Of a DNA stretch of 20,852 nucleotides, positions 999 to 20,513 are shown piece by piece (position 1 is the first letter of the stretch; each line of letters starts with the position of its first letter). The DNA comes from Geosiphon pyriformis (taxonomy: Eukaryota; Glomeromycota; Glomeromycetes; Archaeosporales; Geosiphonaceae). Under the pieces are notes generated by a model. The model was given only the letters and a program-made list of their open reading frames with translations, was not told the DNA's origin and ran no database searches. Location of the stretch: NCBI GenBank assembly GCA_016748015.1, contig JAAOMT010000741.1, forward strand, positions 137,440-158,291, written 5' to 3'. A program made the position numbers and the translations under genes.

Positions 999-1261
999 AA
1001 AGCAACTGGCATGGAATTGGCCATTCCACTCATAAGCCCAGCAAGTTCAAATTATAGAAGATAATTTGAAGATAAATTCAGCTACTGGAGGTTCAACCAC
1101 ATCCAGAAAATGTGAATTCACAGCAAATAAGTATCAACAACATTACAGAAAAGAGACCAAAAACCTTCAGTAACATCGTCTAGGCAGGATATAGCTTGGT
1201 GTCATATTGCTGTGATGGGTGTACCATGATTCACCCAGTTGCTGATGAGGATCATGTATTG

Positions 1262-1495
1262 GCACGAAGTGTCACATGTTCCTCTTCGACCAGAAATGTT
1301 GTTCCATATTTCTTTGTTGAGTAATTGTTTGCTGCAAGTGAGACATGGTTTGTTGTCCCACTTGTCTTGTCTTTTTGGATAGCCATATTATTCCCTATGA
1401 TAGGGCTTACAATAGTAATGGGTTCATGTTTAGTAGTCTTTGTTTGACACTACCCAAGCTCCCATTGAGGACAGTTTTTTCACACAGTCCTTGCA
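1262..1495 (-). other. C-terminal Cys-rich zinc-ribbon segment of the polyprotein
   Basis: In the same frame as the protease, two CxxC-type units are visible. The first is CKDC (1484-1495) paired with YCKPYH, where the second Cys of the partner CxxC appears replaced by Tyr (codon 1400-1402). The second is CLTC (1334-1345) paired with CDTSC (1262-1276). The layout suggests two treble-clef or ribbon folds after the protease. From memory of related Glomeromycotina polyproteins this tail is a regular part of the family, but its role is not known to me. It is broken by TAA, TGA and TAA between 1380 and 1440. Confidence 0.6.
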
Positions 1496-1860
1496 TTTGA
1501 GAGGTATATATGATGGCTTTTTTATTGGTTCACATGAGTATTCCCTTTCCCAGCCACTAGTTATTTTTTTTGCAGTGGTGGTTTTTTCAAATATGTTTTC
1601 TTCCTTTCCTTTCCCTTTTTTCTTGTTTTTTTCTTCTCAATCTAGAATTGGTGACATCTTACTTTGGTTGTTGTCAGTTCAAGCATTAATGGTGGCTTCC
1701 CAGATAAGTTCTTCTCTTTGTTTCTCCTTTTCATTGTTGTTGTTGTTCCAGGCGAGTATTGGCAGCAGTTCATTGTGGTCAATGTCAACCCACAAGACTT
1801 GGTATGCTTCCCAGATGGGTTTCATTTTTTCTTTCTCAAATTTGATAAGTGGTGTTGATG

Positions 1861-2359
1861 GCATGGTAATAGGCTTGAAGTGGTCACATGTGGCTGATAC
1901 CTATGTGTGTCGACTGTTCTGGCTAAGCTGGAGCTCTTGGATGTTCTAATCTAGGGTCACGTTGGTTTTGGACAGCCAGTTGTTTCCAATAAGTACTTAG
2001 TATTGAGTGGCTTCTATGACAAGTACTTTGATTGGTACTATGATGCCATTGACTTTTATGGGAAAATCATCAATCTCTCCAATAAGTGTTTTGGTTGCTC
2101 TATCAGCTGTAATAATTCTGATGCTGGCAGCGCAATTAACTCAGTGATCTAATTGATCCATGAATTGTCTTGTGATAATGCTGCCAGCTGATCCACTATC
2201 TAGGATCAGTTTGATGAAGTGACCATCAACTTTTGCATCAGTGTACATCACGGTGATGGGTTTTTTCTCGAGTGCTGCTCCACTAAACAAAGATGAGTTG
2301 ATGATTTTTTCCAATTCAAAAGGAAAGATGACTATGAGAGATTTGTTTTCAGTGATCAT
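1861..2359 (-). other. Retropepsin-like aspartic protease domain
   Basis: A stop-free part (2359-2141) contains DAKVDGHFIKLILDSGSAGS, with the catalytic Asp-Ser-Gly at 2192-2200 (Asp codon 2198-2200), followed by IITRQFMDQL. The same frame continues through TGA, TAA, TAG and TAG into IDDFPIKVNGIIVPIKVLV and a GNNWLS motif typical of the second half of retropepsin-like domains. The enzyme would dimerise to cut the Gag polyprotein. The first active-site strand is intact but the domain is interrupted four times. Confidence 0.85.
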
Positions 2360-2866
2360 TGCTGGTGGAATATTGTTGGTGAGTGTTGTTTGGGGTGAGT
2401 TGGATTCCGAGTTATTGGTGGTGACATCTTTTGGAATAACCAGAAGACTTAAATAGTTCTGGGAATTTGGGTTTTAGGTAGAACCAATACCTGAATTCCA
2501 CTGTTGAGAGCCTGATAGTTGGTGAGAGAAGCTGGGGATCAGTTGATGAACAACTATTGCTGATCTCCAGTTTTGAGTAATTCTAAGTCTTGGATTTTCT
2601 GATGTTATTTGAGTGGGGTTTTGGAGTGGTATTTGAATTGGTTGTTGGGGCTGATAAATTATTTGGGGCTGTGGCTGATAAATTACCGGTGGCTGTGGTT
2701 GATAAATTGGAAGTTGATATACTGGTGGTTGATAGATTGGTTGCTGTGTCATTGGCCGATAAGTGGTTTGATATTGGTCTTGATTTGGGTAGTGATTCTG
2801 AGTATGAAATCTGTGATCAGGGTTTTAATATTGATTTTCCGATCATGGATTGTTGTTATAAAATTG

Positions 2867-2908
2867 ACAGTTGGCTCTAATGTGACCTTGTTTACCACAG
2901 TTGTGGCA
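2867..2908 (-). other. CCHC zinc knuckle of Gag
   Basis: The minus-strand reading CHNCGKQGHIRANC matches C-X2-C-X4-H-X4-C exactly, the retroviral/retrotransposon nucleocapsid knuckle that binds element RNA. It lies between the Gag core and the Gln/Pro-rich linker, the expected place. The four zinc ligands are intact although stops lie on both sides (TAA at 3023-3025 upstream, TGA and TAA within about 45 bases downstream). Confidence 0.9.
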
Positions 2909-3025
2909 AACATGCATTTTTGGCTGCCATGGCTGATTGGGTAATGATGATAACAATAATGTTGATGGACATGGCTGATTTTGGAAATGATTCATGTTTT
3001 CTGAATTATTGCATTGTTGTGGTGG

Positions 3026-3660
3026 TTAATAAATTGCACAATTGTCAGCTAAGTATCCCTCTAGTTTTTGATTAATTGTATTACTGAATTGTTTTAGTTT
3101 GGAATCCAAGTCAGATAATCCATTTATCACTAAATTTACAGCTTGAACATGGTTAGCTTTTAGCTTAGCTGCTTCAAAATCTCTGATGTAAGTAATGATG
3201 ATTGGGAGGTCAACTAGATGTATTGGATATATTCGCTGAAGGATGTTACTGCGCAATCCTCTGATAAACTGGTTTAAAATCTGTGGTACTGTAAAGTAAT
3301 TAGCTTGGATTGTCTGAATTTGATGCAGATTTCTATGGAAGTGTCCCAAGTAAGTGGTGACTGCTTCTGTGTCCCCTTGTTTGATGATGGTAAATGTGTT
3401 GGTCAAGTGATTGATACTATTGTTATTACTAAAGTATCTCAAGAATTCTGTTTTGAACTCATTGAAGATTTGTGGTTTGGCGGCTAGGCTCTGATACCAT
3501 AAGTCGGTGGTATTTTTGAGAAAATAGGGAATCATTTAAAGAGCTCTACCATTGTTCTATCCATTGGCCACTATGGTTTTTTCAATGTTGTTGAGCTATA
3601 TTTGGGCGTTGTCCTCTTCACTGGTAAAATTGTCAAGTTTTGCGATTGGTGCATAGGCTA
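3026..3660 (-). other. Retrotransposon Gag core domain within the Gag-protease relic
   Basis: The longest stop-free part (3535-3026) reads with the IPYFLKNTTDLWYQSL and FLRYFSNNNSINHL motifs and an Arg/Leu/Ile-rich helical tail, as in the retrotransposon Gag capsid family. Upstream, 3660-3536 continues the domain in the same frame (YAPIAKLDNFTSEEDNAQ) but is cut by TAG, TAG and TAA at positions where the family context suggests Trp, Trp and Gln. The segment ends at LADNCAIY followed by a TAA. The role is particle assembly around element RNA. The domain is dead as encoded. Confidence 0.8.
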
Positions 3661-5076
3661 TTGGATCTAAGTTGGATTGTTGTGGTGATAGTTGAAGTGG
3701 TTGTTGTTGCATGGGTTGTTGGAATGATAGTTGAAGTAGTGGTTGTAGGGATTCAGTTATTGGATTAATCAGTGGTTGATCGATGATGATTACTAGAGGT
3801 AAGTTTTATTAATTTATTAAATCAGAGTTTCGATTATCCTGAATTGGTGGTGTCTGAATATTCAGAGTTTCAATTTCTGGATTTTCTGAGATTAGATTTT
3901 GCTGAGTTTAAAGATTCAGAATTTCAAATTCCAGGTTTTTAGTAATCAGGTTCTGGTAAGTGAATTCTTGATCTTCAGCTTCTTCTTCTTTCTCTTCTTT
4001 TGATTCTATTACTTCCCATGGATCAGAAATTCCGAAATCTGGAGAAGGTGGTGACAATCAGAGTCCTGATGGTGTTGATAATCACAAGTTAAATCCTTCA
4101 AAATACATACTGTATGGTTCTAATAATTCTGCTTTCCTTTGTTTACTTTGAAATGAGAATCATCCAAATGCTGATGTCATGTTTGATGTGGTTGTGCCAG
4201 TAGATGTAATATTAATGGCACTTCCAGGTGTATAATAGTATGATGAATTAGTTGGGAATTCAACTCTTGTTTTTTTCTAAGTAAATGGTTGTATTTTTTT
4301 GGGTATTACTGCTGGTGTTTGCAGTTTTCCTTTGCCTTTACTCGCATAAGTAATAGAGTATCTTTGCTGTGTGTGATGTTCAATTTTTTTGTTGATTTCC
4401 GTAATGATGGAGGTAAAATTGTGATTTGTTGGCAGGTTGGTATTTTGAATTAATTCACTGTAAAAGGCTTCTTTTGCCGATTTAATATTTACTGGTGTTC
4501 CTAACAGATAGATAATTCTTTTGTTAACATAGAAATTGAAAGCTGATTCCACTGATATATGGTTGTAATTTAATCCCAAATGTTGACAATAGTGTTGAAA
4601 TAAAGATTTCATGAATCCTAGATGGTTTGCTCTTATGTTTTCTGATTCTGCCACTTTTAGATTTGTGTTGGTGCTGGTTCTCTGTAGAATTATACCTCAT
4701 AGGGAGCACCAAATATTACAGGTGACTATTTTTAGTGTTGGATTAGATAACAAATCTGTAACTTAGTGCTCAAATCTAGTTGTAGTTGATAGTGATCTGA
4801 AGATTTGTGTCTGAAAAGTTTGTATCCGAAGGATTTGGTTAAGTTCTTTGTATAATGGACAGAGATTCAATGGTAATAGTTTTATTTGTAGCTTCCCAAA
4901 ACTGCAGTTTTGTCAATTTTTTTCTCAGCTTGATGGCTGGTATTCTTCCTGGTAAGCTATCCTCAATCGAGTGTTCTACTCTTATTTTTGGGTCTTTTAC
5001 CAGTCACATTTATCCTGATGTCAGTACCCTGCATGTTAATCCTCAATAGAATTAGTAAACAACAATAAAATCAAAG

Positions 5077-5122
5077 CAAGAAATAAAGAAAAGAAAAGAA
5101 AATAAAGAAAGAAAAGAAATAA
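5077..5122. repeat. Polypurine (GAAA-rich) tract
   Basis: A run made almost only of A and G, mainly GAAAA and GAAAT units, lies on the plus strand; on the minus strand, the transcribed direction of the Gag-protease element, it is a polypyrimidine tract in the leader. It interrupts no coding frame. A pyrimidine-rich tract also lies at about 834-858. No function can be assigned from sequence alone. Confidence 0.6.
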
Positions 5123-5203
5123 GCCAAGGCAATTTGCAAGTTAGTATTCCATCAATAGCCATGATCAAGAGCTATTGTTCCAGTGTGGTTAAGTATCAAT
5201 TAT

Positions 5204-5224
5204 TATCAACATGAAGTGTTGATA
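5204..5224. other. Perfect 8-bp hairpin
   Basis: TATCAACA (5204-5211) and TGTTGATA (5217-5224) are perfect reverse complements around a 5-nt loop. It sits downstream of the TATA box and AATAAA signal of the candidate LTR in minus orientation, so it would be in the element's transcript. Confidence 0.6.
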
Positions 5225-5255
5225 GTGGCAGTGGGTTTGAGATAACAAACAGTTA

Positions 5256-5340
5256 TTTATTTGTGGTTTGAAAAGTTGTCTAGATAAAATCTAAACTAAG
5301 AGGTCTGTCTTTTTAGCTTTTAATCTTACTGCTATATATA
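5256..5340 (-). promoter_or_regulatory. Candidate LTR TATA box and AATAAA signal
   Basis: On the minus strand TATATATAG (5340-5332) is followed 71 bp later by AATAAA (5261-5256). This close pairing is typical of the U3-R part of an LTR. It lies in the correct orientation for the Gag-protease frame and directly downstream of the 38-bp repeat array. Confidence 0.4.
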
Positions 5341-5396
5341 CATAATTAAGATTCCTCAATTCCTCAATTCTTCACAACAGGAATCCTGAGATTCTT

Positions 5397-5509
5397 GGAA
5401 TCCTGCAATTCCTTGAGAGGAATTCTGGAATTCTGGAATCCTGCAATTCCTTGTAAGAATCCTGTAATTCCTGGAATTCTGCAATTCCTGAGAGGAATCC
5501 TGGAATTCC
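5397..5509. repeat. 38-bp tandem repeats built from GGAATTC/GGAATCC modules
   Basis: Three copies occupy 5397-5434, 5435-5472 and 5473-5509 (38, 38 and 37 bp). Each begins GGAATCCTGCAATTCC or GGAATTCTGCAATTCC, followed by GGAATTCTGG- or GAATCCTG-type modules. A degenerate half copy lies at 5380-5396. Because GGAATTCC is palindromic, each unit can also fold on itself. The array ends 57 bp from the TATA box on the minus strand, a plausible upstream enhancer position in an LTR U3. Confidence 0.85.
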
Positions 5510-5570
5510 ACATTTTACTACATCTACTTCTGATTGGCTAATAACTATGCTAATATATATTCCCTATATT

Positions 5571-6071
5571 TCTATGAGTAATATTATAAACAACTCTTTA
5601 GCTCAACATGTTTCCAAGATAGAGGAAGTTCCTGGTCATATTGTTTTAATGCATCTTTTTTTTAAGGACAGAGTTTCAGTTTCAATCATTGACTTGTATG
5701 CTTGTGTCTCTTCAGGTAACCAATTTGAGCAGGCATCCAATGTTAATTTTTTTATAGCCCAGGTAGTTAATTCCAGCAGCTTTGTTGTTTTGGGCAGTAA
5801 TTTTAATGAATACAGTTCTAAAAAAAGTGCAAATTATGAATTTTGTTTGAATCTGAGATTAGTTAATTCTTTTGGTGGACATTCTCTGGCTGGAACCTCT
5901 ACTTGGAGCAACTCAAAGAGTGTTGAAAAAGTTATTGACCATATCTTGGTTAGTGAATCCCTAATTTTGGCTGTGGCCAGTCATAGGATTGGCTCTGTGT
6001 TTGAATTTTTTGACACTGATCACAAAGCTGTCTCAGTTTCAGTGAGTTTGAATGGGCTTTTGGACGTTTGA
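5571..6071 (+). other. APE-type endonuclease domain, C-terminal part, of LINE-1
   Basis: A stop-free stretch covers motifs of exonuclease/endonuclease/phosphatase enzymes: SIIDLYACVSSG, VVLGSNFNEYS (GxDFNE motif, codons 5793-5810), STWSN and KVIDHILVS, and FFDTDHKAVSVSV (TDH, His codon 6021-6023). The Asp of the GDFN motif is Asn here (AAT 5799-5801), which would abolish metal-dependent nicking; LINE-3 keeps Asp at this site. The distal TDH catalytic pair is intact. The first strand and its catalytic Glu are missing because of the 5' truncation. Confidence 0.8.
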
Positions 6072-8036: not shown

Positions 8037-8729
8037 TAGCTTTGCTTTTAAGGGTGTTTATGAAAAATGAGACAAATTGTTAAAGAAGGGGCTCAAGTTC
8101 AAAGCAAATTTGCCTAGAGACTTTCCTAGTGTGGCACTATATCATTCTGAGTTGTATGGCCTAAAGTCTTTTAAGCAAGTGCTCTCTAAAAGTTTGTTGG
8201 CCAACCTGATCAATTTTAGTAATACTAGTGGAACTCTCAGCAAATTTTTCAACCACAGAGTGATGGACTTACAGACTGTTAGCTGGATGTCCTGGCACTC
8301 TCTTTGTTTTCTGGTCACATTACCTATCAATCCTTTAAACTGTTTTTTGGCTAGCACTACTTGGATACTCATTTCATGCAAAACCTCATTAGAAAGTGCA
8401 TTTTCTAATGTTTTTTGGGCTGGAACTGGTGTGCCAATTTTGAATGTGCTGGGCCTGGATGGTTATTTGGGTGTTAGAAAATTTCTCATGAAATATGGCC
8501 TCATTTTCGCCAACCAACTTTTGGATCATTATGGCATATGCTTCACTTAAAACACCTTTTGCAGATGAAAAAAACTTGACCTGAGAGGTCTGATTCCTAC
8601 CTGGTTTGTTTCTGTTACTAATTTCGTCAATAATGGTGGTTTGGATGTCATAGTGAATGTGGTGTCTCATTCTGTTTCCACCAATTTTTTTCATAATGTT
8701 GGTTTTACTTCTGAGTATTTGTTGGTCCT

Positions 8730-9130
8730 TAAGCATGAATCTATTGAAGTTTACACTGATGGGTCTATCAATAGTTTGGGGTCAATTGGTGTCTATGGTG
8801 GCACTGCTGCTTATTTTCCAAGAGCCAATATTAGCATTGGTGTAAAAGTTCTTGGCTCATTGTCCTCAACACTGGTAGAACTACAAGCTATTACTTTGGC
8901 ACTGGATTGTGTACCTATTTCTAGCACAGTTGAATTGTTCACAGATAGTCAGGCATTGCTAGACATTTGTAAATTTGACATAGACATGTCTGTTCTTGAT
9001 TTTTGCTGCGAATGTTGAATTGAGAAGGAGCATATTTGTCAAGTTATTTCAAAAAAAAATCTGTTAGTCACATGGAGAAAGATCAAAGGACATTCAGACA
9101 TTATCGAAAATGAACAGGTGGATTTTCTTG
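8730..9130 (+). other. RNase H domain of LINE-1
   Basis: The four acidic active-site positions of RNase H can all be read: VYTDGS (Asp codon 8758-8760), STLVELQAI (Glu 8878-8880), LFTDSQALLD (Asp 8944-8946), and KGHSDIIENEQVDFLA (Asp 9121-9123, with the conserved His just before). One TGA interrupts the domain at 9016-9018, where related sequences suggest Trp. The domain would remove RNA from RNA:DNA hybrids during retrotransposition. It is the best-kept catalytic module of this copy. Confidence 0.85.
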
Positions 9131-9489
9131 CTAACATCACAGTTTTCTCTAAATCTATGCTGTCCTTGGATGTGCCATATCACTTTCTCAGGGTCAAAGA
9201 CAGGCCTGTTTCTGAGAATGCATGTTATTTTATCAAAAACTTGTTCAATGCTGTTAATTTTGTCAAGTAAGACTCCAAGTGTGGCACTAGTATTATTGAG
9301 ACTGGTGATGCTGGCAAAATCGATGCACACAAGTCATTCAGTGTTTGGCACCCTAATGGTAGGATCCAATCTGGTTATACCAGTTTGTTTTCAGCTTCTT
9401 TGCAGTCCTATCTTATGAAATCTCTACATCGTTGCCTGCTGGTCACTGTAAGAAAGAGGTTGTATGATCCCAGGTATCTTAGCGTAATG

Positions 9490-9537
9490 TGTATTAGGTG
9501 TAGTATGGTCGAGGACTCTGATCACTTATTTCTATGC
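9490..9537 (+). other. C-terminal zinc motif of LINE-1 ORF2
   Basis: CIRCSMVEDSDHLFLC fits C-X2-C-X7-H-X3-C, the zinc-binding motif found near the C-terminus of many LINE ORF2 proteins. It is intact, and the same spacing occurs in LINE-2 and LINE-3. In other LINEs this region helps bind element RNA or target DNA; here the role is inferred from the family. Confidence 0.8.
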
Positions 9538-10038
9538 TCACATGATAACAATGCCAAGAGGATTATATTGTTTTCTATTAGAGAAAGGTGGTACAAAGTG
9601 GCTGGTGATTCCGCTATAGGTGATAGGGTGGTATATTCTCTGTATAAAGCTGAGTTATTCTATAGTTTGTACATGTTATTGGCCAAGGGATTTGTGTTGA
9701 AAAGCTGGACAGCTGATGCTATCCGGTGTCTTGGCTTGGCTTCAGGTGGCCATGTGATCATCAATTTGGTTTATAGTCTTGTGGAGTGTCATAGATTAGA
9801 CATTTGGTTGCCTGCAGCCAAATTAAGAGCCTTCTATGAAAAGCACAATCTGTTACTATGTAATAGATTTATAGTGCCATTGGTTATTGGTTTGTTGGAC
9901 TTCTAAGCTGTTGATGTTATCTGTGGCCTTGGTATTAGGTTGGGTATTTACATGAGCTTTGGTTTGTGTCCTCATATTGCTGGTTTGGGTTTTGGTTTCT
10001 TGTGTAATATTTCTTTAATAGATCCTGTGAGTGCGTAG

Positions 10039-10165
10039 TGCTGTCTTGACTAGGCTAAGTATCTGGTTACGTGTAGAAAAGACATGAGCTATACTTAATT
10101 TAAAATCTAGTTTGATTTTATGTATTTAGGTAGTAGTTAGACTGCACTTGTAAAACTCTAATAAA
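10039..10165 (+). other. 3' UTR and tail of LINE-1
   Basis: The sequence after the ORF2 stop aligns by eye with the ends of LINE-2 and LINE-3: TGTCTTGA, then TAAGTATCTGGTTACGTGTA, then GAAAAGACATGAGC, then ACTTAATTTA, then TTTGATTTTATGTATTTAG, then GTAGTTAGACTGCACTTGTAA. It ends in a CTAATAAAAAATAAAAAA tail. Shared 3' UTRs are usually what the reverse transcriptase recognises when it starts copying. Confidence 0.75.
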
Positions 10166-12009
10166 AAATAAAAAAAATAATGTAAAACGATATTAATAAT
10201 TAAATATATTTTATTAAATATAATATTTTTTTAAAATACCAGTTTTAATAATAATAATATTTAAATTTTTTTGAAAATTATTAGTAATAATTACATATTA
10301 ATATTATTAAAAAAATCAGAAAAATAAAAAATAAAACAAATATAATTATATACTTAAAAAACCAATTTATTAATTATAAAAACAGTATAACCAAAAAAAA
10401 ATTAGCCAATTTGGCTTTAAAACTATTATAAAAAACAATAATTTTTAATTAATTAATTAAAAAAAATTTAATATTATTTTTTTATTAACACAAATTAATA
10501 AACAAAAATAGTATTAACAACAAAAATTTTTTTAAAATAAATAATAATATATTGTTATAAACTAACAGATTTTAATGTTATTAAGAGTAATACCAAAAAA
10601 AAATTACAAAAAACAATAACAAAAAAAAATAATAAATTAATAATTATTACAAAAAATTTTTCAATTTTAAAAATAAAAAAATTTAGCAAACTTAATTTAT
10701 ACAATAATATTTAACGAAACTTAAAATACAAATTTTATATAAAAAAACTTAAAATTGTATTTAATAATTAAATTTAACTCAAAAAATTTATGTAAAAATT
10801 AAAATACAGTTTTAATAATTTTATTAAATAATAAGATAAAGTTTATTTACTTAAAAAATTTTTAATAATTAATAATTATTTCTTAAATATTATTAAAAAC
10901 AATATTATTAGAAAAAAAAGTAAATTTAAATTTTATTTATAATTATAATAAAACTAAATATTATATTAATACAAAAAAAAAACCGATAAAAAAGCCAAAA
11001 AAAATCAAAGTTTTATTTTTTTATAAAAAAAAATTGGCTTTAATAATATTAAATTATTATTAAAAATACTAAAAAAATAAAGTTTTTTAATATTATAAAA
11101 GAATTAATACTCAATTTAAAAAAGAAAAAAAAAGTTGTTTTAGTTTTTTTTGCTATTTAAATAATAATAAAAAAGTAACAAAAAATAATGGCTTAACTAT
11201 AATTAAAAATTTTAAAACTTTTTAATAAAAATATTAATTGTTTTAAAAAATAAAAAAATTGCAATTTTTTTAATTTTTGTTTTGATTATAGTAATAAAAT
11301 ACAAAAAAAAAGTATTTTTTTATAGATTTTTTATTAATTATTACAAATTAACAAAATAAATTTTATAAAAAATTATTATTATTTTATTAAAAACTTATCT
11401 TAATATTATACAGATTTAAAATATAAAAATTATTTTAAAAATAAATAGCTTATTAAAGATTTAACAATTTTTATTAATAATAATATTAATAACAATATTA
11501 ATAATATTAAAAAAATATTAAAATTTTTGGTAATATTTAGTGTTTTTTTAAAATTATAATATATACAAAGTAATAATTATTTTTAATATAATAATTTTAA
11601 AATATTATTAATTAATTTATATTTACTATAAACAAAAATTTTGAATTTTAAACAAAATTATAATTATAAAGAAAATATTTTTACAAATATTTAAAAATCA
11701 AATTAATAACTATATTTTTAAAACTACAATATTTCTAAAAATTTAATTCAGTTAATTTTTATTTTTTATTTAATTTAAAATCAAAACAAAAAAATAACAA
11801 CAATAAAAAACTTAATAATTTGTTTAAATAATATACAATATTCTAAGAATAATTGTCAAACAATTATAAATATTTAAACAAAAAATTAATAATAAATTAC
11901 TATTTTTATTTAAATTATTTTTAAAATTATTTGTTTGTTTATTAAAACAAAAAAAATTATATTATTAAAAAATTTAAGTTAATAACAAAAATTAACTTAT
12001 ATTAATATT
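10166..12009. other. Extremely A+T-rich block, left part, no genes
   Basis: About 1.85 kb is almost pure A and T; for example I count five G or C in 10801-10860. AAT/TAA/AATATT strings dominate and CG is nearly absent. No frame longer than a few dozen codons is seen and no RNA gene was recognised. Only short islands such as AGCCAATTTGGCT (10405-10417) and an AAGCCAA/TTGGCTT inverted pair (about 10993 and 11034) stand out. It is continuous in character with 12832-13624, and the LINE-2 insertion splits the two parts. It could be a centromere-like or gene-free compartment, or an ancient heavily mutated repeat; nothing decides between these. Confidence 0.7.
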
Positions 12010-14639: not shown

Positions 14640-15120
14640 AGTGGCAGCATTCACAAAAAAGTCAGCATGCATATTACTAACAATTCCAGAGTGACTCTTG
14701 ACCTTGACTCAAGTAACTGACAGATTCTTAGAAGTGACAGTAGAACAGATGTGTTCTTTTTCAATCCAGCACTTTTTGTGAAAGTTGGGATTAACAGAAC
14801 AGTCCAAAGAAGCATACATATTCAAAGAGGCCTGGCTATTTGTGTGTAAGACCACAGAACTTGAAGCAGGAATGCAATCCAAAGTAAGAACAATAGCCTG
14901 CAGTTCTGTAAGAGTTGAAAACAGCAGACTGTATACTCTAATACTTACATTCAGATTGATGCATGAGAAGTAAGCAGCAGCATCACTACAAGTATTTACA
15001 GACCCTAAACCCTTGACTGAGCCATCAGTATAAATGTCTATAATACCAGATCCAAACTGTATAAGATGATTATTAATAAACCCAAAATTACACAAGAACT
15101 TACTTGGAGTGAAATGACAA
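14640..15120 (-). other. RNase H domain of LINE-3
   Basis: IDIYTDGSVKGLGS, FSTLTELQAIVLTLDC, LHTNSQASLN and KVKSHSGIVSNMHADFFV mark the fold. Three of four acidic residues remain; the Asp of TDSQ is Asn (14838-14840), and KGHSG reads KSHSG. A TGA at about 14709 replaces what is probably Trp just before the last strand. The domain is inactive by point changes alone. Confidence 0.8.
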
Positions 15121-15699
15121 GCCATAACACTACTGCCAACCAAACCACCATCTTCAATAAATGTGACTGTAAAGACAAACCAATCAGGAATGCGGCTCCT
15201 AAGATCCAATTTTTTCCATTTGTGAAACATATACCACTTGAAGCACACATAATGGTTTAGAAACTGATTTGCAAAGACAATGCTGAACTTTTGTAGTGAC
15301 TTAACCACATTTAGGTAATCTTTTACACCTAATATATCTGTAACAGGAGCACCAATATCAGATCAAAAAACATTAGGGACATCATTAATTAAAAAAGACT
15401 CATATGACACCAATGTGTTGGTTATGCTAGCTTAAAAGCAGTTGGTAAAATCAATTAACAATTTGACCAGAAAACTAAGAAGTTGCTGGAGCATCCAATT
15501 AACGGCCTGCAGATTTATGGCTCTGTGTTTGAACAATCTGCCAAGGACACCTTTTGAGTTGGCAAAATTAACCAAATTAGTTAGTAAGCATTTGGTCTGC
15601 AATTGACTAAATGACTTTAGACTATAGAACTCAGAATGATACAAAGCCTTCTTGAGAAAATCTCTGGATAAGTTAGTTTTGAGCTTCAAATTTTTTCTC

Positions 15700-16950
15700 A
15701 ACAACCTGTCCCATTTTTTACACACACCTGGCAACATATAAGTGAACTGAATCTTGTAGCAAACAATGAAATGAAGTACTGCAGACACTAGATACAAAAA
15801 TTGTTTGTCTAAAACAGCTTTTCTCAGAATCATATTTGTAAAAAATCTGATATTCAAGTGGGTTTTGCTTAGACTGTGTTTGGAAAGACCATTTGTAAAC
15901 AAAAAAATGTCCAAATATCTGTAAAATTCATTCTTCTTAGCAATCAGAATATTGGATCTACTAATCTGCAGCTAAGAGCACTTCACTCTCTGGTTGATTG
16001 ATATGACTACTGTCTTATCTGTGTTAATTGAAATGTCATTAATCTGGAAGAACTTATTAGTTATATCCAAAATATTCTGAGTTATAGCTCTGCTATTATC
16101 AATTCAAATGGTATTATCTACAAAAGCTCCAGCTGCCAGAAATGAAGTCAACCCACTTTTGAGATCCTGCCTACCAGATTTAGTAAAGAACTTTGAGTCC
16201 AATCTGTATTGTATAATTTATCATGTTTCTTGACCTTGCAGAGCAAAAAATCATAAAAATCTTTCACAATAATGATGAAAAAACTTTCTCCTGATCAAAA
16301 CCATCATGAACAACATAATCTTGTGTTAGCCCAAAATCTGTTATAATCTAATTGATATGGCCATTGTGTATGCTACCAAAGAACTTAATAAAATGAGAGC
16401 ACATCTTAATCTTAATCAGACTGTTTAACATGTGAAACTATCCAACAGAGTCATATGCTTTTCACATATCCTGAAAAACCAGCCACAACTCTTTATCCTT
16501 TTCCAATGCATCTTTAACAATCAAACCAACAGCAAAAATTGGAGTTTGAGTAGACATCTTCTTTAAAATTGAGAAGTTATTATCATGCAACACATCAAAC
16601 TTATTGCATGCCAAAGAGATCCTATCAGACAAAATTTTTGAGAGTATCTTCTGGGCTGTTTCAATCAAAACAATTGGTCTGGTATTGGTAAAGTCTTCTC
16701 CTAATTATATGGTTTTGGTATTATGGAGACTCAAGCTTGTTTCTATTATACAGATATAGAACCAGAAACCAAACAAGCATTAATAATGTCCAACAAACCA
16801 TCCAGAACTAGTTTATTATCATGTCTCTAAAGCTCATTAAGAATGCCAGAAAGACCAGCAGCTTTTTTATTAGGCAAATTTTTAATCACCCGAAAAAACT
16901 CACCAAAACTAATACTACTCATAACATCACAAAAAGCATTGTTATTAACA
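15700..16950 (-). other. Reverse transcriptase domain of LINE-3
   Basis: Readable blocks: LPNKKAAGLSGILNEL, VSIIPKPYN, TNTRPIVLIETAQKILSKILSDRIS, LVFQDM followed by a TGA and KAYDSVG (motif A), DQEKVFSSLL (motif B), FLAAGAFVDNTI (motif C, with the second catalytic Asp replaced by Asn), NDISINTDKTVVI and FTNGLSKHSLSK. Motif C is followed by a TGA in the same place as in LINE-1. Three frameshifts are inferred from jumps of this conserved order between frames. Confidence 0.8.
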
Positions 16951-17699
16951 TAAGCCAAAGAAACATATTGATTAAACCAATAAGTAAATATAAAGTTGGT
17001 AATTACATGTTTTTTTATTCATTTTTTCATGATATTATCAATCATGAACTTAACTTCATCAGACAACAGTATCAAATCATTATTTACAATTAAATGGTCA
17101 AGCACCACTTTGCAAAATAGACACTTTAAAACACTTTTGATCATCTGCCCCTTATTAGAACAAAAGTTTTCTATGCATTTCTCAATTGTTTTTCTGATAA
17201 GTACATTTTTTGCAATTTTAAACTCAAAATATTTGGATCTGCAGTATCTCTTTTTGATATTTGACAAGTGATATAAAATCAAGTTCAAATTTGTGCCATT
17301 GTTAATTATGTTATGCAAATTAGAAGTCTTTTTTTCATTGACAATGAACCAAGCTTTGATAAAGTAACCAGCTTCATAACTTCCAGATGATTTCAAACAC
17401 TTTACCAGTTTAGCCACCAACAATTTCAGTCTGAAAAATTTTGATGAATGTTTATTTCTTGAGCAATCAAATTCACTAAACCAGTATATAGAAAAAACTT
17501 CATCAACAGTCCTGACTACCATATTCTTAAGGATCACCCACATAGTATCTAAATCCCCACCAACTTTTGTACTATTAAACTTGGCAGATTTAATCAAGAA
17601 CCTGTTCAGTAAGCACTCCCTAAAATACAACCACTTCTCAATACTAATATCCTTGATTTTGAATTTCTACTTATTCCTATTAGCTTGTTTACATTTACT

Positions 17700-18425
17700 A
17701 TTAAGACTAGCATTCAGTAGACTGCCCAAGCCAATTAAGACCAAAACAGCATTGTAATCAGTATCAAAAAAATCAAAAATGGGTTCAATCTAATAACCAA
17801 CTACTGCAGAAGACAGACTCTCACTCATAAAAATAAAATCAATAATCCTTTCAACACCCTTTGAGTTATTCCAGATAGAAGCATTAACAAGTAGATGCCC
17901 AGCAAATAAATTAACCAAACCAAGATCTGAGCAAAACTTGAAGCTCATATTTTTTCCAGAGCCATTTTCATTGAAATCTCCACCAAGAACCACAAATGTG
18001 CTGAAATTAACAGCCTTAGCAATAAAAAAGTTGATTTCTGAAGTCTGATCAAACTTATTTGCAACAGAAGCACCAGCATACAAGCCCAAAATTGCAACTG
18101 AAAGCTTGCCTTTAAAGAAAAGCTGCACTGAAATAACCCAACCAGAAATATTCTCAATTTTAGATACATGATGAGCCAAAGAACTGTTTATAATAATAGC
18201 TACCATAGCATCAAGAAACCTTTTATCCAAACCAAATGAAAAAACACATATTCCCTTAAACTTGTTCATAATCCAAGATCTGATGCTAGGCCTCAACTTT
18301 GTTTCTGTAATAAATGAGATCATATTTCCAGACTTTTTATGTCAATGAACAATGTCTTCTTACTTGGCAGAAACATTAATACTCTGAACATTACATGTAG
18401 TCACCTTCCAAACCAAACCACTCAT
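17700..18425 (-). other. APE-type endonuclease domain of LINE-3
   Basis: Motifs in order: TTCNVQSIN, SFITETKL (catalytic Glu), LSVAILGLYAGAS, VVLGGDFNENGSG (Asp codon 17976-17978, intact), ASIWNNSKGVERIIDFIFMS, and, after a TAA, FFDTDYNAV. The catalytic His of the final TDH motif is Tyr (TAC at 17754-17756), a single C to T change on the coding strand. The N-terminal part has a TAA and a TGA between residues 21 and 30. The domain would nick the target to prime reverse transcription. Confidence 0.8.
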
Positions 18426-18442
18426 TGAAAAGAAGAAAGTTT

Positions 18443-20310
18443 CTAAGAATTCAAACTAGTACACAATTGATCTAACTTTACCAGAATTGAACCAACAGAG
18501 ACATTAAGGGCCACCAATTTAGATTTCAAACAGCTTATTTTCATAGTCAAAACTTTTGAACTACTCAAACCAAAGACTGAAATGTCAAAAACAACAGAGG
18601 AAAAAGATAGAACCTCCAATACAAGATTATTTAAAACCATGTTCATTTCCAAGTCTGAGCCATTTGATGTGGAATTATTTGCAGTATAAGAGAAAAGAAG
18701 AGGAGCCAGAGGCACCAAATTTACACTATAGAGTTTATACATTAAACTAGAAACTAGATCTATCAAGAGCTCTAAGGAGCATTTTAAAGAAGCCAACTGA
18801 GTGTTCAAAAAAGACCCAGAAATTAAAACAGAAGAGGAATTATTGCTCAAACCTAAGGCATTAGAAAAAGAGGAGCCAAAACCAGAATCACTACCAAGAT
18901 AAGAGTGGCTAAAAGAAGAATTAAGCATAACCACTTATGCCCAAGACTTACCACCAAAGGCAGTGGGTCAGGAAATAAGAACACTCTTTTTAGCATATAA
19001 CTTTGTTAACTAAAAACACTGTTCATCTGAAACAACTCTCTTTTTAAATGTGTTTAAAGACTTAGGAATAGACGCAGTTGATACATTACACTTCAAAGCA
19101 AAATGTCCAAACTTCCTATACTTTTTGTATTAAGCCAGATTCATCCTTGTTTAAGAAAGCCTAACACCACCAAAAATTGGCTCTGTGCAGAATGCTGACT
19201 CCAAATCTTCATTAGATTTAAAACAAATCACAGCACAATAGAACCTATTACCAGTTTTTAAAGACCAACTAATAACACAAGTTTTCTCACTAGTTCTTTC
19301 CAAAAAATTTCCAAGATTATGCACTGTTGTTTCTATTAGCAAAGTAAACAAAAGCACTCTAAAACAATTTCTTGACACCCAAATTTTATGATCTCTTATG
19401 ACCATAAGTATATGCACTGAGTCTTTCCCAATAAAGAATAACCATTTTAAAACTAATTGCTCTGCCTAACCAGATTCAACAAATTTTACTACAGTCTTCT
19501 GCCACATTCCAATCAATTGAATTTTGATTGACTTAATTTTTCTAAATGCAGACACTATAGTAACAATCATATTCTTTGACATGTTTATGAAAATTTCTTT
19601 GATTACTACAGTCTGATCTAAGCAAACTCCTTGTTTCTTGAGATTGCTGTTTATAATAATCACATTTCCCTTGGCCAATGAGACTGCCTTTTTCATGCTT
19701 TCTTCAGAAGTAAATGTCAATTGGATAATCCTCTCAAATTTTGAGGGAATAGTGGCTCCCTCCCAAATCTATTGATTAATGAAAAAAATTTTCTGATAAG
19801 TTGAATCTTAGCTGTGGCAGATTTGCCTTCTACTGCTGAAAGATTAATGTCCAATGCAAATAATTTTTTGACTGACACCTTGACAAAAGTTTTAATAATT
19901 TTTGAGTCAATCCACTTCTTGTCCAAAGAGATAAGTAAGCAAGGGGAAAGAACAATTTCATTGTCATCAACATAGAAATTGGGAGAACTAAGCAGAGAGC
20001 CAAAATCAGCACCAGTATTAACATGCTTTGCTCTAGAAATAGTAGCAGCCGAGCCCAAAAAAAGCCCACTATTAACACCAATCATGTTAACATTCTTATC
20101 ATTATCAGTCAAACTATCCATGTCAAAATACATACTATTATCAGGACCAGATTTACTCAAGAAGATATCTCTCTTATCACCAGAGTATTTAACATTATTA
20201 AGAACAGCTTTTTTTCTCTGAGAAAAAAAATTACCAGCAGAATCATAAAAAGTATCTTTGGATGTCTTCTTCTTAGACATATTGCTACTTGTAGCAGCCA
20301 CCAAATCCAT
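18443..20310 (-). pseudogene. LINE-3 ORF1 relic (RNA-binding, RRM-like and zinc-knuckle protein)
   Basis: The start ATG at 20308-20310 opens a Ser/Lys-rich N-terminus (MDLVAATSSNMSKKKTSKD), stop-free to 19717. A two-base slip in a GGGAGGGAG run (about 19752-19762) moves the frame; the new frame holds to the TAG at 18443-18445 with several stops. An RRM-like fold follows (TVVIKEIFINMSKNMI to QKTVVKFVESG, about 19660-19466), then a second one (RVLLFTLLIETTVHNL to ESAFCTEPIFGG, about 19360-19170), then a zinc knuckle whose first two Cys are Tyr (YKKYRKFGHFALKC, about 19130-19085), and a Ser-rich tail ending in a Leu/Val heptad-like coiled coil (about 18600-18450). ORF1 proteins bind element RNA. 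The total is about 620 codons. Confidence 0.75.
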
Positions 20311-20513
20311 GGAAAACAGGTTATTAGGTAAAGAAATATTGATGTAAACTAATAAGAAAAAACTAAAAAACTTTTTTTTTCAAAAAAACACACTTTTTAA
20401 GAATTAATGGAGGTGTTATGGTTTAAGAATTTAGCAAAAAGAATCATAAAAATAATACAAACTATTCAATCATAATATAGCACAGTAATAATCTTAGAAA
20501 GGTAATGATTAAC

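Follow-up and report, generated by a model that had tools for sequence, protein, structure and literature searches.

How can a reading frame of almost 1,200 codons be closed by some two dozen stops and still keep a single phase throughout? The question is raised by a Gag-protease frame, which probably belongs to a Ty3-like retrotransposon, on the minus strand of a 20,852-nucleotide stretch of Geosiphon pyriformis DNA (the window; assembly GCA_016748015.1, contig JAAOMT010000741.1, positions 137,440 to 158,291). The frame runs in one phase from 4696 to 1118 and contains 25 stops in 1,193 codons. In an initial annotation of the window, which had noted one minus-strand frame with about 24 stops and no frameshift, this was attributed to a targeted cytosine mutator similar in outcome to repeat-induced point mutation (RIP) or to deamination of methylated cytosines. 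The comparisons described below, with other copies of the element and with host genes, are best accounted for by a gradual cytosine decay restricted to transposons, which probably proceeds via 5-methylcytosine (5mC), a reading held here with moderate confidence.

The part of the frame that belongs to a repeat family, recognised by the family alignment and a Pfam match to Retrotrans_gag (E 3e-10), extends from 4696 to 1178 (minus strand; 1,173 codons) and carries 24 in-frame stops (10 TAA, 9 TGA and 5 TAG). The last 20 codons of the longer frame are no longer part of the family, as the other copies cease to match at about 1178, and the next repeat starts directly past this end, at about 1176. 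Aligned with 34 other copies from the same genome, the window copy is free of insertions and deletions, which agrees with the single phase first noted; private indels are absent from 7 of the 35 copies and number one to six in each of the remaining ones. When compared with 31 near-full-length copies, a set from which the short copy L033 was also excluded, the window copy differed on average by 473 substitutions and 2.0 gap events, gaps of either copy being counted.

The stops themselves point to cytosine changes. Where the window copy has these 24 stops, the sense residue most frequent among the other copies is Gln at 15 codons, Trp at 9 and Arg at none, meaning that the annotated placement of the stops on Trp, Gln or Arg codons was right for the first two residues only. 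Each of the 24 stops can be derived, through C>T or G>A changes alone, from a sense codon found in one or more of the other copies, as had been proposed, and at six of the Gln stops the third base is also unlike that of the commonest sense codon. None of these stops is private, the same codon being a stop in between 2 and 20 of the other 34. Among the 53 private changes of the window copy, 51 are C>T (39) or G>A (12), with no A>G and no T>C.

To sample the family, the host genome (124.7 Mb, 406 contigs) was searched at the DNA level; the best 40 of 3,720 candidates were scored, giving 42 matches including the window. From the 41 others, 34 were retrieved and 7 partial matches were left out of the first round; two more distant copies (L034 and L035) were excluded from the variable-column, context, load and background analyses. 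As a check on ascertainment, 13 further loci were collected with a 200-base probe and measured outside it. Ten were family members with a similar load (9-15% at non-CpG, or CH, cytosines), five of them being earlier partial matches and five wholly new, and the other three (L067, L069, L070) were set aside as members of other subfamilies. All 35 copies are broken, with 16 to 26 stops apiece and 738 altogether; 731 of these are separated from the most frequent sense codon by transitions alone. The window copy is therefore typical of its family and not special. The median pairwise distance between copies is 0.129, and non-CpG changes are shared about as often as expected from site rates (median observed/expected 0.90 for the 528 pairs of 33 copies), from which a near-star family is deduced, with L017/L026 as the sole clear pair.

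Across 33 copies, with alleles counted only if present at least twice, 1,321 columns are variable, 1,312 of them being C/T (757) or A/G (555) and nine of other types. Over all pairs of these copies the transition/transversion ratio (Ti/Tv) is 36.6, far from the result fixed in advance as contrary to a cytosine mutator, namely transitions no commoner than transversions. Private changes pooled over 34 copies amount to 6.0% for C>T and 6.5% for G>A, against 0.23% for A>G, 0.33% for T>C and 0.06-0.18% for each type of transversion. All CpN contexts are affected on both strands, CpG the most: 45.5% and 45.6% of CpG cells are mutated on the two strands, followed by CpC (14.2 and 19.5%), CpA (10.8 and 14.5%) and CpT (9.5 and 11.2%). 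In the window copy, 23 of 176 ancestral CpGs are kept, the others having become TG (67), CA (71) or TA (15). Over the copies, CpG is retained in 918 of 5,750 cells (84% lost), and 13% of the other cytosines are mutated. CH sites favour a 5' pyrimidine (TCH 19.4%, CCH 13.5%, ACH 8.3%, GCH 7.9%), CHG (9.5%) is not favoured relative to CHH (13.7%), and the load stays even from one end of the frame to the other.

Host genes of comparable divergence behave differently. The kinase paralogs L078 and L087, 89.8% identical over 2.5 kb, differ by 79 transitions, 72 transversions and 25 gap events. With 25 gaps for 151 substitutions in this pair, the low indel count per substitution in the repeat copies is not ordinary for the genome. 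In the five longest close kinase pairs (2-2.5 kb, 86-90% identical) Ti/Tv is 0.66-1.1, the 65 kinase alignments of at least 300 bases sum to 5,695 transitions and 7,041 transversions, and the private changes of four kinase paralogs comprise 101 transitions and 114 transversions, with rates of 3.3% for C:G>T:A and 0.95% for A:T>G:C. A pair of DNA methyltransferase (DNMT) genes gave 40 transitions and 17 transversions in the longer aligned piece and 10 and 5 in the shorter. The spectrum of the window copy against its relative L002 departs from that of L078/L087 with a Fisher p of 3e-39. Moreover, 21 host loci (L040 and L042 among them overlapping) have CpG observed/expected ratios (O/E) of 0.62-1.17, no lower than 0.78 in 20 of them, against 0.03-0.21 for three repeat stretches in the window. 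Set against the four kinase paralogs, the C>T excess is about 54-fold at CH and about 364-fold at CpG, rough values because the background is one gene family and the column rules differ between the two classes. Since kinase paralogs show an ordinary Ti/Tv, neither duplication nor a genome-wide AT bias explains the decay, and the targeting of cytosines in the repeat that was originally suspected is upheld, the tested host gene paralogs being spared.

Transversions also provide a measure of age. The copies carry a mean of 10.7 per approximately 3,500 sites, against 72 per 2,514 between L078 and L087, so that on this measure their age is roughly one tenth that of a host gene duplication comparable to them in total divergence; in such young copies, few indels are to be expected.

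Several observations bear on the tempo of the process. The load per copy is near binomial, with variance ratios of 0.65 at CpG and 1.45 at CH, and CH changes show neither strand runs (z 0.5-0.8) nor clustering (z 0.1-1.3). A strong same-strand signal at CpG sites (z about 16) and an excess of close pairs at CpG or at all sites (z up to 8.7) are read as a putative artefact, because a CpG turned into TpG or CpA no longer counts as CpG, which makes its two cytosines mutually exclusive. The pair L017/L026 is more instructive. Contigs C213 and C5 share a 13.4-kb segment that contains these copies; its two versions are 94% identical and differ by 735 transitions and 24 transversions. The two copies have 111 CH changes in common, against about 40 expected, and 62 and 72 of their own, giving totals of 173 and 184, where the remaining 31 copies average 164.5. 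Changes shared through a segmental duplication must have been inherited, and those acquired separately came later; the process was therefore active both before and after the duplication, and steady accrual fits better than a single burst. In the same two-contig segment (C213:22000-37000 and C5; L036-L039, L017 and L026), related elements stand in a row at 8-9 kb spacing with about 75% identity.

The search of the host genome for DNMT genes gave 10 matches on six contigs (C96, C318, C327, C355, C307 and C346; for background, see parts of PMC13297926 and PMC7862722), including a DNMT1-class C-terminus at L043 and a BAH domain, clear at L041 and weak at L045; a PDB search to class the remaining DNMT genes returned nothing. 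One cytosine methyltransferase gene (L040/L042 and L044, contig C318) is duplicated in inverted orientation, the copies lying about 32 kb apart with about 90% identity. Uracil repair is represented by UNG-like exons on contig C271 (E down to 1.8e-14, below the whole-protein cut-off) and by a weak match to the uracil-DNA glycosylase (UDG) superfamily, which from its motif we take to be TDG/MUG-like.

In the mechanism that probably accounts best for these data, the Ty3-like retrotransposon would have spread in a burst, the window holding one dead copy. Host DNMT1-type enzymes would densely methylate the silenced transposon chromatin, most strongly at CpG and more weakly elsewhere, and methylcytosine would deaminate to thymine faster than repair acts. 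In this manner each inserted copy would lose cytosines by C>T little by little and independently of the others, whatever the strand or context, with other mutations and indels staying rare and the tested host gene paralogs being spared. What methylcytosine decay leads one to expect is found in that CpG is the hottest context on both strands, genes keep their CpGs and DNMT genes are present; from this, we infer that the copies are methylated at cytosines and that the deamination is spontaneous and not enzymatic.

A number of observations weigh against this mechanism. Methylation limited to CpG predicts little CH excess, and the approximately 54-fold excess found needs non-CpG methylation or another agent. 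The CH rate shows no trend with the distance to CpG, and the preference for TpC and CpC over ApC and GpC at CH sites is not predicted by plain methylation. The CpG excess in mammals is 10-20-fold, and the one measured here lies far above it. Between copies, the CH load varies slightly more than a binomial would predict (p 0.048), and the UNG-like gene and the weak UDG-superfamily match indicate that repair is not simply missing. Finally, according to the portion available of a 2026 review (PMC13297926), N6-methyladenine has largely replaced 5mC in early-diverging fungi, including Glomeromycota. With the large CH excess and its TpC/CpC taste poorly explained, there is room for non-CpG methylation or for an unknown deaminase.

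The latter would be a cytosine deaminase dedicated to transposons, led to them by small RNAs or heterochromatin and acting slowly on methylated and unmethylated cytosines in all contexts. The big non-CpG excess, its independence from nearby CpGs and the TpC/CpC preference are all in keeping with such an enzyme. However, processive deaminases tend to produce clusters or strand runs, neither of which is seen among the CH changes, and CpG is still the hottest context. On these grounds a dedicated deaminase is considered unlikely, although it is the best placed of the alternatives to methylcytosine decay.

RIP proper, a premeiotic mutator triggered by homology, dependent on RID or DIM-2 and completed in one or few sexual cycles, appears somewhat less likely still. 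As described in Neurospora and other Pezizomycotina, it resembles the present case in its near-exclusive C:G>T:A changes on both strands, non-CpG sites included, in the killing of repeats by stops and in the scarcity of indels, and the DNMT genes present in the host would also suit it. Nevertheless, duplicated host genes that RIP should strike, namely the kinase paralogs of 2-2.5 kb and 86-90% identity and the DNMT pair, are spared. CpG is affected first, and not CpA (11-15% against 45% at CpG). RIP is expected to leave strand runs or a very uneven load between copies, whereas here the CH changes form no runs or clusters, the load is near-even and clock-like, with at most slight overdispersion, and it went on rising after the duplication that produced L017 and L026. 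In the sections available of two reports, RIP signatures are undetected in Gigaspora margarita or Mucoromycotina (PMC8647823, citing Venice et al. 2020) and G. margarita is said to be without RIP (PMC7082362), which counts against RIP here if the host is of that group. Of the two outcomes with which the initial annotation compared the decay, deamination of methylcytosine hence fits better and RIP less well, because all CpN contexts are affected with CpG ahead and the load is near-even and clock-like.

An AT mutation pressure across the genome, or a loss of uracil repair, is very improbable. A stretch of 8-13% GC in the window might be adduced for it, together with the lower stability of CpGs in the kinase pair as well (29 of the 41 CpGs of L078 are still CpG in L087), but the private transitions of the kinase paralogs do not outnumber their transversions, their C:G>T:A and A:T>G:C rates are those given above, and host loci keep their CpGs. 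Loss of uracil repair was rejected in view of the UNG-like exons and the weak UDG-superfamily match. Sequencing or assembly error at methylated cytosines, where long reads can indeed be wrong, is scarcely credible given that 111 CH changes were inherited through the segmental duplication and that the signal is absent from host gene paralogs. Least credible of all is an APOBEC-like editing of retrotransposon cDNA during reverse transcription, which would yield C-specific changes in a retroelement but not strands equal at CpG and similar elsewhere, nor changes that continued after a duplication at the DNA level.

Methylcytosine decay of this kind has precedents. Deamination of 5mC in the transposons of vertebrates and plants gradually turns CpG into TpG and CpA on both strands. 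The family described here shares all of these traits, but its excess looks far larger and extends to all CH contexts, with CHG not above CHH. A CpG-biased C>T decay of transposons in Tuber and Microbotryum, the latter with a Masc2-type enzyme, is attributed to methylation and deamination in the accessible part of PMC4352252; there too CpG ranks first among the contexts, whereas here non-CpG sites are also far above background and the host group is probably different. For Arabidopsis and for three fungi in which no strong bias exists, the same source gives Ti/Tv values of 1.2-1.7, with which the pairwise value of the present family can be compared only roughly, the two having been measured differently. 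Transposons of R. irregularis carry CG methylation, as stated in a portion of PMC8647823. Among the matches listed in a literature search (title or opening of the abstract), none reported such decay in Glomeromycotina.

The assignment of the window element to the Ty3-like retrotransposons is a qualified one. Within the frame, an open minus-strand stretch at 3026-3535 contains the Gag domain PF03732, and the motif CHNCGKQGHIRANC (2867-2908, minus; found by eye in the translation, with coordinates derived by hand) is presumably a CCHC zinc knuckle. A further open stretch (2141-2473, minus) may represent the start of an aspartic protease, as suggested by a DSG motif seen by eye and by Pfam matches that are all below the cut-off (best E 0.007). 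The related copy L002 runs on into a dUTPase (one piece above the cut-off and one just below) and a reverse transcriptase (PF00078, E 2e-6, just below the cut-off). Gag, protease and reverse transcriptase thus stand in a Ty3-like order, the protease and reverse transcriptase being below the cut-off and the reverse transcriptase and dUTPase coming from L002 and not from the window; it is on Gag and the protease start, together with the two domains of L002, that the probable Ty3-like identity is based. In L002 (1660-2958, minus) the dUTPase domain lies upstream of the reverse transcriptase, which is unusual among Ty3-like elements. No direct repeats of the long-terminal-repeat type were seen in L002-L004, the copies are interrupted by other repeats, and none of the elements found was complete.

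Upstream of the frame, the element continues on the minus strand from 4697 to 5581, as judged by homology to the flanked copies L002-L004, which holds up to 5581-5584. This 5' region includes short tandem-like repeats rich in GGAATTC/GGAATCC (5381-5508), matched also in L002-L004. At the other end, the element is abutted and cut by a repeat termed X (192-1176), with matches near L002, L003 and L004 in varying orientation to the element; its boundary with the element is near-identical in kind in the window and in L002, in opposite orientation.

A second repeat family, represented by part of a LINE-like (long interspersed nuclear element) sequence at 8571-9870 (plus strand; recognised by eye, with a weak RNase H match), was used as a comparison set, for which 16 other copies were retrieved; a 3' probe brought back mostly long copies already known. 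Its Ti/Tv is 9.8 in a closer subset of 10 copies and 6.7 over all 17. Private rates in 11 copies are 11.9% for C>T, 11.4% for G>A, 2.0% for A>G and 0.9% for T>C, and 22-23% of CH and 51-56% of CpG sites are mutated. The bias is similar to that of the Gag family but weaker, and the copies are more diverged. A second LINE-like stretch discerned by eye (14700-20400, minus) has a CpG O/E of 0.03, the strongest CpG loss among the stretches measured. A Pfam search of four stretches of the supposed LINE-like elements, three of them from 14700-20400, gave no match. The GC-poor stretch mentioned above (10001-12000) perhaps consists of very old decayed repeats.

As regards the host, the kinase family is large (597 first-look candidates, of which 144 were scored) and the genome search gave no match to the type I fatty-acid synthase family PF08354. 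A large kinase family and the absence of type I fatty-acid synthase are hallmarks of Glomeromycotina, with which the two observations are consistent; a search for an 18S primer site gave no match.

One consequence for the genome of Geosiphon pyriformis is that plain divergence badly overstates the age of its transposons. Provided that the host is mycorrhizal, mutational decay of transposons would be taking place in a group from which RIP has been reported absent. RIP ruins duplicated genes along with transposons, while here a large kinase family holds long paralogs free of the bias. It may be, although this is put forward as a tentative and rather doubtful proposal, that arbuscular mycorrhizal fungi, to our knowledge long regarded as ancient asexuals, own a transposon defence that mutates cytosines independently of pairing, acting continuously on silenced chromatin in all CpN contexts and sparing duplicated genes. 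If true, such a defence would permit the large gene-family expansions that RIP would ruin.

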